Positions 31,569 through 49,276 of a DNA stretch of 64,000 nt are shown in pieces. The DNA comes from Mrakia gelida. Lineage: Eukaryota; Basidiomycota; Tremellomycetes; Cystofilobasidiales; Mrakiaceae. The notes beneath the pieces are model-generated. The model ran no database searches, had not been told where the DNA came from, and worked only from the letters and a program-made list of their open reading frames with translations. The stretch lies in contig BRON01000001.1 of assembly GCA_024345305.1 (NCBI GenBank), positions 1,550,001 to 1,614,000 on the forward strand. Direction: 5' to 3'. The position numbers were made by a program, and so were the translations under genes. Numbering within the stretch: position 1 is the first letter of the stretch; every line of letters begins with the position of its first letter.

Positions 31569-33978
31569 ATGGATATCGACATGTCTCTGGACGAGATCGC
31601 TGCTGCGACCAAGAAGCCTACCGCTCCCAAGCAGGCTCCCACGTCGAACGGTGCTCCCAGGACGAGCAACGGTGGTTCGACAGCTCAGAGGAACCAAGCG
31701 CCTTACTCGGTAAGTTCGAGACTTCTTTCCTGTAGTGGGTGATAGGGAGGATGTACGGCGATGTTTGAGAGGCTCTGTAGAAGTCGGATGGGACGTGAGG
31801 GGAGAGAGGAGGACAAGGAAGTGGGAGGGAAGGAAGGGAGGGAGAGCTGGTGATGGAACCAACGTTGGCTTCCCTCTCCTTCTTCCTGCCCTTCTTTCCG
31901 TATACTCGAGCCATCTTCTATACTCTTCACCTCGAGCGTATATCCGGCTTGTCTAGTCCAGCTTTGTTCGACCCTTCTATGCCCTCCCTCTCTCCCACCA
32001 TCCTCCTTCCCTCCACCCGCACTTCCCTTCCCTTCCCTTCCGGCTCCTTCGTTCCCTTTGACTGACCTCCTCTCTACTTCCTCCTCGCTCTCTTCTTCAC
32101 AGCGACCACCTCCAGCTACCACTTCTGGTGGGTCATGGACTCACGACATGTACGCTGGGTCGAGGTCTTCCTTCTCCAACAAGTCCGCTGGAGGAGTCGC
32201 TCGACCGTACCACGCTCCCGCCAACCCCAACACTCCCACCGCTAGGATCAAGATCGAGGGTCTCCACTACGAAATTCAGAAGGCTCAGCTTCAGGTTCGT
32301 GCCCCCTTCCACCAGTCACTTCTACATCTCTACCCGTTGCGTCTCCGCATCGCGAGCTCGCTTCATTCTCGCCTTCCCTTCCCTCCTTCCGGCACGTTCA
32401 CTGACGGCTCCCTCCTTCCGGCACGTTCACTGACGGCATCTCTCCCTCTCTCTCCTTCTCTTCGGCTCGAGCAGAAGATCTTCTCTCAGTGTGGAACCAT
32501 CGTTGATGGTCCTTCGATCCAAGTAAGAATCCGATCCTTCTAAAGCCCACACCTCAAACCTCGCTCGCCTCGACCCGATTCGGTCGTCTTTCCCCTCGTG
32601 AGGCCTCCTTCGTTCGGTACCCTTACCTCAAGAGGTCGACGATCACTGGTCGACCGTACGCCCTCTCGTACGCTAGGACGCTCGCTCGCTCGCTCGCCCA
32701 GATGGGAGCAGGAGAGGACGATGGCTGGCTGGCGATGAAGCGGCATCGGTTTGGAGGACGACTCGCGTTTCGAAGAGGCGACGGCGACGGATCCCTCGCT
32801 CGGTGGCTCGCTACTCAAGCAGCACTCTCGTCGTCTTCGGGTCGTCGTGGACATCATCATCATCGTTCTGTTAGGCTCCTCACTGTCGTGTTACCTTTGA
32901 GATGACGACCCTTTCCACTTTGATTTACCCTCATTCAGGCGAGTCGCTTGTCCTTCCTTTCCTTCCCTCGACGAGCTCTCTTCGTGCTGACTTCTTCGCC
33001 CCTACCATCTCGCTCGCCTTCCCTTGACTGCAGTACGACCGATCCGGTCGATCCCTCGGTATCGCTTTCGTCACCTACGACTCTGTCGACGCCGCAAAGT
33101 GGGCTCGAGAGAAGCTTGATGGACAGAAGGCCAATGGTTCGTCACGTTTCTTCTCTTTTTCTTCTTTCCCACCCTTCGACAACCCTCAAGCGCCAACCTC
33201 GCCTCGCCCAGCAACGATGCGAACGCGTCTACTTTTTCACTTTGAACTCCCGAGCTGACTTCTTTCCCTCCTTTCTCCTCCTCTCAGGCGAACCCATCAA
33301 GATCACCTACATCACCATCTCCCTCCCTCGAACAACTGGAGTCACCGCCAAACCCACCGGACCTGGAGCTGGCCTGCTCGGACGACTGGGAGGTGTCGTT
33401 GGAGAGGAGAAGAAGGGAGGAAACAACAAGCCGTGCGTTCCTACGATCGCTCCTTCTCGCGCCTCGTCCCTTCGTTTCGTCTCGCGAGCTCACACTCACC
33501 TCCTCCCCCCTTCGTCTTTCTTCCTCCCTCTCTCTTCTCAATTTTTCAATCTCGTCGTCAAGCAGTGCTCCCTCCGGACCCCGAGCAGGAGGAGCTCGAC
33601 CCCCAGCTCCTCCGCAGTCGGCTGGAGGAAACGGAAACCCTCGAGGACCTCGTCCCGCTCGAGGTGTTGGAGGAGGAGGAGGAGCTCGACCTGAGAGGGG
33701 AGCTCGACCTGTCAAGAAGGGACCTGCCGATCAGGACTCGCTGGATAAGGAGTTGGAGGCTTTCATGAAGCCTGATGATGTATGTTTTTCGATCTTGTTT
33801 CGAAGGGAGGGGAGGGAGGGAGGGCGAGCTCGAGACGACGAGGGACCCTTCGTTTGCCGTTCGACGCGTCGAGGCGCGTGAGGCTGACTTTTCTTCTTCT
33901 TCTTCGTTGCGTTTCGAGCAGGATCCCACTCCGGCTGCCGTCGCGCCCGTCGTGGGAGAGGCTGCTATGGAGGAGTAG
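31569..33978 (+). CDS. YRA1: mRNA export factor of the Yra1/ALYREF family
   Basis: Nuclear adaptor linking spliced mRNA and the UAP56/Sub2 helicase to the export receptor. It starts MDIDMSLDEIAAATKK, containing the N-terminal LDEI UAP56-binding motif. A variable region follows, then one RRM (ARIKIEGLHYEIQ, KIFSQCGTIVDGPSIQ, SGRSLGIAFVTYDSVDAAKW), an Arg/Gly/Pro-rich arm (RGGA- and RPARG-type repeats), and the C-terminal LDKELEAFMK motif of the same family. I traced the exon boundaries in frame: introns at 31710-32102 (393 nt), 32295-32474, 32523-33033 (511 nt) and 33137-33287, plus later ones. The 511-nt intron interrupts the RRM. These are the longest introns I measured in the window apart from AFI1 intron 1. 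Confidence 0.92.
32381..32436 (+). repeat. Direct 27-bp repeat containing CTGAC inside a YRA1 intron
   Basis: Two copies (32381-32407 and 32410-32436, period 29) of a tract ending ...GTTCACTGACGG lie 40-70 nt before the acceptor of intron 32295-32474. Each carries a CTGAC branch-like core, so the intron appears to have two alternative branch sites. Confidence 0.75.
32679..32697. repeat. (GCTC)n repeat in the long YRA1 intron
   Basis: Four to five copies of GCTC within the 511-nt intron. Simple sequence. Confidence 0.7.
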
Positions 33979-46082: not shown

Positions 46083-49000
46083 ATGGCTCACGACGACAAG
46101 AACCAACACGAGACTCAACAGCACGTCGGTCAGATCAACGGAGTGGACGCTGCTACCGCTCACGACGCCGTCCTTCACGAGCAACTGACTGTTCTGAACT
46201 ACCTTGGTCCGCAGCCAACTTCTCTATATCGGCTTCTTCTCTACGTCGAGGTTCGAAGAATAAACAGCGAGCTGACCTTCGTTCCCTGCCTTCTTTCCTT
46301 CCTTCTCGTGTCGTTCCTGCGCTTCCTCCTCTGTCTCTCGGCGCTTCCTTCGATCAGTCGCTGTCTTCTCGTACGTACTACGCTATCTACCTACGTCTTC
46401 CTCGCCCCTGGTCCGAAGGATGAACACCGAGCTGACTTTCCTTGTTGTTTTCCCTTCCTTCTCGCGTCGCTCCTCCCTTCCCTCCTCCGTTTCACTCTCG
46501 TCCCTTCCTTCGATAAGTGGTATCGTGAGTCCTCATGTTCATATCTCGACCTTCCTTCTCTCCTCCCGAGCTGACTTCTTCTTCGTCCCTCCTCATCCTC
46601 GTCGCTTCTCTCTTCTCTCCTCCTCCTCGTTCTCGCTCTTCACCCTTCTTTCGATCAACAGGGATCCTTCCTCTTCGGATGTGAGCTTTCCTCCTTTGAC
46701 GCGACCTCGACGCTCACTCTCGAAGTGCGACTGACGCGTCTTCTCCTCGTTCTTGACGCTTTCCCCCCCCTTCGCCTCCCTCAGACGACTCTGGAATTAT
46801 CGGATCGGTCATCTCTGAGAACTACACCTTCTTCCACGACTACTTCAAGTCACCTAATGCAGACCTCGTTTCCCCAACTAGTGAGTCACTGAAAAAACAC
46901 GCTCGTTGCGATCGCGAGGACGAAGACGAGCGCTGACTTCGGTTCGTCCTTCCCTCCTCAGTCACTGGAGCCATCGTCTCGGTCTTCGCTGGAGGATGCT
47001 TCTTCGGTGCCATCTTCGCTGGATACACTGCCAACAAGATCGGGAGGAAGAGAACCATCCAGGGTACGTAACGCGAAGGAGTCGAGGAGGAGACCAAACC
47101 GCGTCGCACCCTTGCTCACTCTCCCAATCACCCCCACCCCTACCTTCTCTCCTCGCCCCTGCCTTCTCTCCCGTGCCCAGTTGGTGCCAGTATTGCTGTC
47201 GTAGGCTGCACGATCCAAACCGCCGCTGTAAACGTCGGTATGCTCATCGCCGGACGATTCATCGCGTAAGTTTCAAGGACTAGTTCTCGCGCGTCGTCGC
47301 TCGATTCATCGCACCCATGCTCACCTCTCCTCCTCGCTCCCTTTCTTCGATACAGTGGTATCGCGATCGGATGCCTCAGGTGAGCCCTCGTTTCTTCTTG
47401 TCCTCGATCGACCTATCAGGGGCTCTTTGAGCGAAGAACGGACGCGAACTGACTCGACCCCGTCGCTCCTTTCCTCGTTCCAGTATGATCGTCCCCCTCT
47501 ACCAGGCCGAGATCTCCCCTCCCCACGCTCGAGGACTTCTCTCTGGATGGACTCAGATGATGATCACCGCCGGCTTCTTCGTGGCAAATTGGGTAGGCTA
47601 CGGATGCCAGTTTTTGAAGAACGACGGACAGTGGCGAGTTCCCCTCGCTATTCAGATCGTTCCTGCTTTGATCCTCGGCTTGGTGAGTTCGAACGCGAAG
47701 AAGGGAGGGGAAGATCGTCGCGACTCAACTCGAGCTCATTTGTCTCCCTCTCTCTTTTCTTCTCATCCATCAGGGAATGTTCGTTCTCCCCTACTCTCCT
47801 CGATGGCTCGCTCAGGAGGGTCGACATGAGGAGGCCATGGCTTCTCTCATTCGACTTCACGGATCCGAGGCCAACAGGGAGCTCATCGCGTTCGAGTACG
47901 ACGAGATCGTCACTCAGATCGCCTGGGAGAAGGACAACGTCAGCAACAACTTCATGGATCTCTTCAACACTCGACCGTCGCTGCAGAGGACTCTTTGTGG
48001 GGTCATGGTTCAGGTTTGTTGCCAGTGGACTGGAGTCAACGTCAACTCGTACTTCGGACCTACCATTTACGTGAGTCGTCTTTCTTCTTCGATCGGATCT
48101 TCCTCGCGTCGAGCACGAAGCTGATATCTCGCTTCTTTCATCGCAGGCCAACTTGGGATACACCGGATCTACCATTCTGCTCATCAGCGGTATCTCTGGG
48201 GCTTGGGGAAGTAAGTCCTACTCTCCTCCTTCTTGCTCGTCTCGCGCCGAAATCGAACTGACGGGTGTTCTTTTCCCTCCCCTTCCTCAGTGGTCGTCAC
48301 CTTCGTCTTCATCACCTGGATGGTTGACCGAATCGGCCGAAGGAAGCCTCTCGTCTACGGTGGTGTTGCCATGGCCGTTTGTCTCGCTTGGCAGGCTGGA
48401 GTCGCTTCGAGTGAGCTTCGTTTCTCGTCCTCTTCGTTTCTCGCTCGACGCCTTCTGACCCCCTCCTTTCTCTGTTCTTCTTCGTGCAGTGTTCGAGGAT
48501 CCTGCGTACCAGAACTCCTCTGCTGGAATCGCCGGAATCGCCTCCATCTTCCTCTTCTCTGGAGTCTTCTCAGGTGCGTACTCGATCGAGCTCGAAGAAG
48601 GGCGTCGCGGCGGAGAGACGAAGCTGACAGCTCCTCGTTATCTCGTCTTCTTACTCAGTCTCCTACGGTCCCGTCTCCTGGGTTTACCAGTCCGAGGTCT
48701 TCAGTATGCCTCTCCGAGCGTGAGTGTCGTTCGCTTCTCATGCTTCGACGAAGAAACATCGCAGATCTGACCTCTTCCCTTTTCTTCCTCAGTATGGGAA
48801 CTTCGCTCTCGACTGCTTCCAACTGGGCTATGAACGTCCTTCTCTCTCAGATCACTCCCATCGGTCTCGACAACTTGGGTTACAAGTAGTGAGTCTGCGA
48901 TCCGCTCGACGAGCTCAGTTCGTTTCCCTCAACTGACGCTCGACTCCTTTGTTTCTCCGCAGCTTCTTCATCTTCGTCGCCTCCAACGTCTGCAACTCCA

Positions 49001-49276
49001 TCATCGCCTACTTCCTTTTCAAGGAGACCAAGGGACTTACCCTCGAGGAGCTGGGAGCTGTCTTCGTGAGTTCGAGCGAGCCGGCAACGAAGCTCGACGC
49101 GTCGAGATCAGCACTGACTCCTTCTCCTTCTTCTTCCTCCCTTCTTTTAGGGAGACTACGATGTCATCGCTCCTCCTTCCGCTCGAAGAATCGCTCGAGA
49201 CGCCGAGAACCACTCCCCCTCGGGAGAGGACAAGAAGCTCGACCTCGCTCACAACGAGAACATCTCGCAGGTCTAA
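46083..49276 (+). CDS. MFS sugar porter (SP family) with three consecutive micro-exons
   Basis: Twelve-helix hexose-type transporter, about 530 aa. Exon 1 (46083-46206) joins in frame to micro-exons of 13 nt (46358-46370), 7 nt (46518-46524) and 19 nt (46662-46680), then to 46785. This yields TVLNYLVAVFSGIGSFLFGY followed by DSGIIGS, the canonical first helix of sugar porters. Later exons show GYTANKIGRKRTIQ, AGIAIGCLSMIVPLYQAEIS, ARGLLSGWTQ, LPYSPRWLAQEGR, VCCQWTGVNVNSYFG, DRIGRRKPLV, SWVYQSEVFSMPLRA and FKETKGLTLEELGAVF. Substrate not predictable. About fifteen introns in total. The stop is TAA at 49274 after NENISQV. Confidence 0.92.
46207..46661 (+). repeat. Family of related tandem introns around micro-exons
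   Basis: Introns 46207-46357, 46371-46517 and 46525-46661 (151, 147, 137 nt) share a common layout. Each has GAGCTGAC, then a CT-rich block, then a tail like CGCTTCCTTCGATCAG / CCCTTCCTTCGATAAG / CCTTCTTTCGATCAACAG. The first two are clearly similar over most of their 3' halves. They look like diverged copies of one segment. Confidence 0.65.

Follow-up and report, generated by a model that had tools for sequence, protein, structure and literature searches.

We found that the first two introns of a sugar porter gene are homologous along nearly their whole length, and we consider it probable (roughly 0.7) that intron 1 (I1), a spliceosomal intron of fairly recent origin, was copied from intron 2 (I2) and inserted 13 nt upstream of it after the gene had split from its paralogue C. 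The gene, hereafter gene A, lies on the forward strand at 46083..49276 of the window, that is, the whole stretch of 64,000 nucleotides that was analysed (contig C1, 1550001-1614000, of a genome whose 25 contigs total 34.9 Mb). Translation and splice sites give a predicted model of 17 exons and 539 amino acids in which all 16 introns are GT-AG and the spliced coding sequence is open up to the final stop. The predicted product matches the Pfam profile PF00083 with E=1.3e-117 and 393.9 bits against a gathering score of 22.3. Two Rfam matches, both below the gathering score, were dismissed as chance. Among the matches listed, the best protein match to gene A was a partial general substrate transporter from Mrakia frigida (91% identity over 84% of the query), and in a tree of 25 proteins the two grouped with support of 99/95. 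The preliminary description had spoken of related red yeasts; one gene tree gives a narrower placement, with Mrakia in the Cystofilobasidiales, which makes the organism probably a relative of Mrakia. A segment of 579 bases, searched against the whole genome, led to two other places, which hold paralogue B (contig C1, L002) and paralogue C (contig C18, L003). Protein identity among A, B and C is 62-77%. Remoter sugar porters of the same genome lie at 601 kb on contig C1 and on contigs C3, C17 and C10.

In both I1 (46207..46357, 151 nt) and I2 (46371..46517, 147 nt), 86 nt separate the branch site from the 3' end. Their alignment has 102 of 135 ungapped positions identical (75.6%) over 146 columns, with an SW score of 309, and spans positions 12-151 of I1 and 7-147 of I2, leaving the first 11 nt of I1 and the first 6 of I2 unaligned. 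Shuffles that preserved the branch-site core gave a mean score of 132 (sd 18, maximum 206, n=2000), and none of 5000 shuffles that preserved both the ends and the core reached the observed value (maximum 216). The next-best match of I1 scored 197 among 3492 sequence windows covering 264 kb on both strands, and 171 among the 826 other introns of a sample of 827 (72 predicted genes, 264 kb). Comparison with CT-rich introns of the same genome had been set beforehand as a refuting test, and the I1-I2 alignment beats all of them. It is highly implausible that the similarity reflects shared CT-richness and splice signals alone: I1-I2 lies above every shuffle and every other window, its two halves are separately significant (5' half, p 0.0002; 3' half, 0/5000), and the likeness reaches into the less CT-biased 5' half. 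That explanation does hold for intron 3 (I3; 46525..46661, 137 nt), which 2 unrelated introns among the 826 match better than I2 does. The I2-I3 score of 202 was reached by 58 of 5000 shuffles, and I1-I3 scored 154. Of the three look-alike introns grouped in the preliminary description, I1 and I2 are homologous but I3 does not rise above the CT-rich background; the three-intron family was rejected and shrinks to one pair. Nor are the motifs that had been singled out as shared special to these introns, since GAGCTGAC occurs in 57 of the 827 predicted introns and TTCGAT in the last 14 nt of 16, I1-I3 included. A branch-to-3'-end distance of at least 86 nt was found in 23 of 454 predicted CTGAC introns, again with I1 and I2 among them. 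The donor of I1, GTCCGC, is rare, not unique (4 of 827 predicted introns, I1 included). GTNCGT donors are common in the same sample (GTTCGT 113, GTACGT 43, GTGCGT 26, GTCCGT 12) and account for 14 of 59 homology-supported introns. A BLAST-type DNA search run genome-wide lacks the sensitivity to show the I1-I2 homology, which rests on the shuffle and window tests: with I1 as query it reported only I1 itself and missed I2, and with I2 as query it returned the tail of I1 at E=2.39.

Exon 1 (46083..46206, 124 nt) ends in phase 1 inside the Val codon of LNYLV, where B reads LNYL-VAVF and C reads LNYA-VAVF. It is followed by predicted micro-exons of 13 nt (46358..46370), 7 nt (46518..46524) and 19 nt (46662..46680), and, beyond intron 4 (I4; 46681..46784, 104 nt), by an exon at 46785-46880 that joins in phase with the micro-exons and exon 1. 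Exons 2-4 are needed to assemble LNYLVAVFSGIGSFLFGYDSG. The three micro-exons predicted earlier are borne out by homology and reading frame: their coordinates and phases proved exact, and the 13/7/19 chain is in frame with no internal stop across the 539-aa coding sequence. A gene finder whose training set omitted gene A, but included its own predictions together with paralogues B and C, recovered 16 of 16 introns of gene A. When eight proteins from other genera served as guides for splicing, the exact 13/7/19 chain came out in 0 of 8 cases under a strict intron penalty and in 5 of 8 under a lenient one. An alternative exon at 46358-46374 (17 nt), without the 7-nt exon, was picked by 5 of 8 (strict) and 1 of 8 (lenient), and guide proteins that gave neither solution missed the region. 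We regard it as decidedly unlikely that the gene model is wrong at this point, whether through other junctions such as this one or through mis-splicing of the copy. The alternative is in frame, makes a protein one residue shorter, and falls where 4 nt are repeated in tandem at the donor, GTACGTAC; however, the 7-nt exon is kept in paralogue C, where the alternative donor is absent, and it is the 13/7/19 chain that yields the complete helix with the SGIG also seen in C. In paralogue C the 7- and 19-nt exons were chosen by three of four guide proteins, protein A itself among the three. Masking the intron-1 donor lowered the ab initio score by only 3.5 units, compared with 13.1-14.4 for the other five sites tested, so that this donor rests on protein homology.

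Exons of 7 and 19 nt also occur in paralogue C, in the places and phases that they have in gene A, and because of this identity the two exons are probably older than I1. The letters of the 19-nt exon are the same in A, B and C, and in B they form the 3' part of a 29-nt exon. The 13-nt exon, which in C is continuous with the upstream residues, would be the product of the gain of I1. The proposal that copied introns had cut a normal exon into fragments is thereby narrowed to the 13-nt exon alone; the 7- and 19-nt exons look older, the positions of I2 and I3 being common to C. Micro-exons are not peculiar to gene A, since 81 of 755 predicted internal exons in the 264-kb sample measure 1-20 nt, a rough count given that the gene finder makes zero-length exons (5 of 755). 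Three consecutive exons of at most 20 nt were predicted in that sample only in gene A and, doubtfully, in L046. At 47343-47363, where intron 7 ends and exon 8 begins (TTCTTCGATACAG TGGTATCG), the letters look like those at the passage from intron 2 into the 7-nt exon (TTCCTTCGATAAG TGGTATCG), a likeness that may be chance. Two public M. frigida models are both broken at or just past the first helix, as if annotation had failed to thread the small exons: P0001 begins near the junction of exons 5 and 6, and P0064, a relative of B, lacks some first-helix residues. The gain of I1 may also account for the break in these models.

The position of I1 occurs only in A, whereas the positions of I2 and I3 occur in A and C (I2 shares position and phase with C2, I3 its position with C3) and that of I4 in all three genes. 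The same-position pairs A2-C2 and A3-C3 score 63 and 50, that is, at background, while I1-I2 scores 309, which argues that the copy is younger than the split. The divergence between I1 and I2 is 24%, against 58% at A-C fourfold sites, and lies below the fourfold divergence of all three paralogue pairs. I1 is thus most likely a copy that arose in gene A after its separation from C. Gain by local copying had been suggested for the whole series; it is supported for one intron, I1 from I2, and not for three. The positions of I2 and I3 are common to C. Two conditions for an intron gain with known source, a clear phylogeny and an identified source, were given by Logsdon et al., as quoted in PMC4974935. 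The source element here is I2. On the side of phylogeny, within two paralogues from one genome, I1 is absent from B and C, and the protein tree makes A and C sisters with moderate support (92/85) and puts B outside, but fourfold-site identities (A-B 53%, B-C 53%, A-C 42%) disagree with that order, so the branching of A, B and C is not beyond doubt. Were B and C sisters, one gain in A would be no simpler a history than one loss in the ancestor of B and C. It is unlikely that I1 is instead an old intron that C has lost and B has either lost or shifted, and whose likeness to I2 came later by conversion between neighbouring introns. Intron B1 lies 8 nt off the I1 position in B and is the second-best match of I1 among the 826 introns (171), and homogenisation is possible, I4 having 77-82% identity between paralogues that agree at 42-54% of their fourfold sites; family introns can evidently stay alike over the same time. 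Against this, an old I1 requires two losses or shifts on the protein tree, the branch sites of B1 and I1 are out of register in their alignment, and several unrelated windows match I1 as well as B1 does or better.

Intron positions have otherwise turned over widely among the three genes. With 16, 20 and 23 introns respectively, A, B and C coincide exactly in position in only 7 pairs, and the first helix accounts for 5 of these. In the rest of the genes (12, 17 and 19 introns) there are 2 exact pairs against 0.54 expected, a number reached in 10% of random draws, and 7 pairs 1-3 nt apart against 3.2 expected; a few of the latter may be old positions that have shifted. The stretch 46662-46784, which joins the invariant 19-nt exon to I4, stands out in comparison with L002 and L003 for its conservation, and could be a conversion patch or a functional element. 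The turnover fits the intron richness reported for the Cystofilobasidiales, which in passages of PMC5103461 have 7.65 introns per gene, the highest value among the fungi compared, with gain suggested.

In the reading that we prefer, the copy of I2 would have carried a branch site, a long AG-free CT tract and a 3' splice site, and with these inherited signals the new intron could have been spliceable at once and the protein kept. Its insertion would have severed a 13-nt exon next to the pre-existing 7- and 19-nt exons. Short fungal introns are recognised by intron definition, and the tiny exons are presumably joined in this way, one step at a time. Two routes to such a copy can be proposed. In the first, the excised intron would be reverse-spliced into its own transcript near the original junction, followed by reverse transcription and then recombination; a whole-intron copy of this kind agrees a little better, as far as length goes, with an alignment that runs almost from end to end, needing only +4 nt in I1. 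The second is tandem DNA duplication, which the 13-nt distance between I1 and I2 fits. Tandem genomic duplication and intron transposition are both described as routes of intron gain in passages of PMC3443670 and PMC4974935, and two duplication cases in fission yeast appear in PMC3629103. As a sub-case of local copying, we entertain tentatively, and as less likely than not, a tandem genomic duplication of exon 2 together with intron 2, in which the upstream exon copy would have decayed into the start of I1 and its Val codon GTC would have supplied the odd donor GTCCGC, as in potato RdRp. The start of I1, GTCCGCAG...CTTCTC, resembles exon 2 (GTCGC...CTTCTC); with exon 2 prepended the best score is 77 as against 58 without it, a shuffled exon 2 equals this in 0.9% of 2000 trials, and tandem exon and intron duplication has a precedent in the case described in PMC4974935. 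However, of 3000 real coding 14-mers that begin with GT, 14% score as high, a background against which an exon-derived lead in I1 no longer stands out. The duplication would also require a net 10-nt deletion, compared with +4 nt for the whole-intron copy, and in a second pair of copied introns no exon sequence was copied.

This second pair, C16 and C17, belongs to paralogue C (contig C18, 454873-454969 and 455018-455117). The two introns are split by a 48-nt exon and align from first to last base with a score of 203 and 75 of 91 positions identical (82%), a score reached in 0 of 5000 shuffles. The position of C16 is common to B15, and that of C17 is found in C only. Since the 48-nt exon reads as conserved protein, no exon appears to have been copied with the intron. 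The introns of A, B and C form 1711 pairs, and once those at the same position are set aside, the three top scores all fall on adjacent introns: A1-A2, C16-C17 and the doubtful A2-A3. Scores of at least 200 were reached by 3 of 750 adjacent pairs (these same three, all in genes A and C; 5 of an original 755, divided by zero-length predicted exons, had been dropped), by none of 5859 non-adjacent pairs within a gene, and by 49 of 334937 between-gene pairs. The adjacent excess has a Fisher p of 0.0015, or 0.013 without the initially given A1-A2, values that are not independent, the other two pairs having already been seen in the set of 1711. With the predicted genes containing A, B and C set aside, 664 adjacent and 4550 non-adjacent pairs remain, and none of them scored at least 200; a threshold of 180 is reached by one adjacent pair (long introns at 31864-32474 of the window, score 197) and by two non-adjacent ones. 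The prediction containing A is fused with upstream sequence and was excluded from the 664-pair set. Recurrence of local intron copying is hinted at by these counts, and the C16/C17 pair in a sister gene suggests that such copying may recur and makes it testable genome-wide. A much bolder extension, to which we give little credence, is that in this lineage full-length intron copies repeatedly land within a few tens of bases of their source, perhaps through reverse splicing that narrowly misses the junction before the spliced-out intron has left it. Such local copying would then be a main source of both the extreme intron richness of the Cystofilobasidiales and their near-complete turnover of positions.

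Searches of the own genome, which can detect only near-identical copies (that with I1 missed I2), reported no close multi-copy (introner) family for I1, I2 or C17 outside their own genes. With C17 as query, the matches were confined to gene C itself and an inverted repeat beside it. This repeat, of about 1 kb (contig C18, approximately 448139-449125 and 454946-455935, 98.3-98.8% identical), holds a 3' part of paralogue C (L029/L030); it includes intron C17 and only the end of C16, most of which lies outside.

We found no published report of gene A, or of adjacent copied introns in Cystofilobasidiales, among the titles and abstract openings listed from the open literature. As it reads from the DNA, I1 would add to a known kind of event, spliceosomal intron gain from an identified source, whereas for most gained introns the mechanistic origin is described as unknown (passages of PMC3443670). 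The closest parallel is potato RdRp, where, as described in PMC4974935, a new intron likewise lies beside its source, has inherited the branch site, pyrimidine tract and 3' splice site, and possibly owes its donor to a former exon. The potato copies differ at ten nucleotides and the junction is confirmed by reads, whereas I1 and I2 are 24% diverged and their junctions are predicted; also unlike the potato case, the exon-derived lead of I1 is only putative and older micro-exons flank the intron. In the intron transposition of Mycosphaerella (Torriani et al. 2011, as reported in PMC3443670), the new intron is again homologous to an existing one, but for I1 the source and the copy are 13 nt apart within one gene. 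Fungal introner-like elements, as described in PMC4457414, resemble I1 in that intron-wide copies become new introns; they differ in belonging to a close multi-copy family, of a kind that our searches, which pass over common words and overlooked I2 with I1 as query, did not report for I1, I2 or C17. The 1-nt exon of Fusarium CYP621A, as described in PMC12940212, is like those of gene A a fungal micro-exon needed for a conserved protein, but gene A would have exons of 13, 7 and 19 nt in a row, predicted from DNA. Finally, the closest listed relative of gene A comes from Mrakia, in the same order that tops the comparison of introns per gene in PMC5103461; the passages of that survey name no mechanism, whereas gene A points to one source, and I1, with that source 13 nt away, would be a concrete case of gain in this order.
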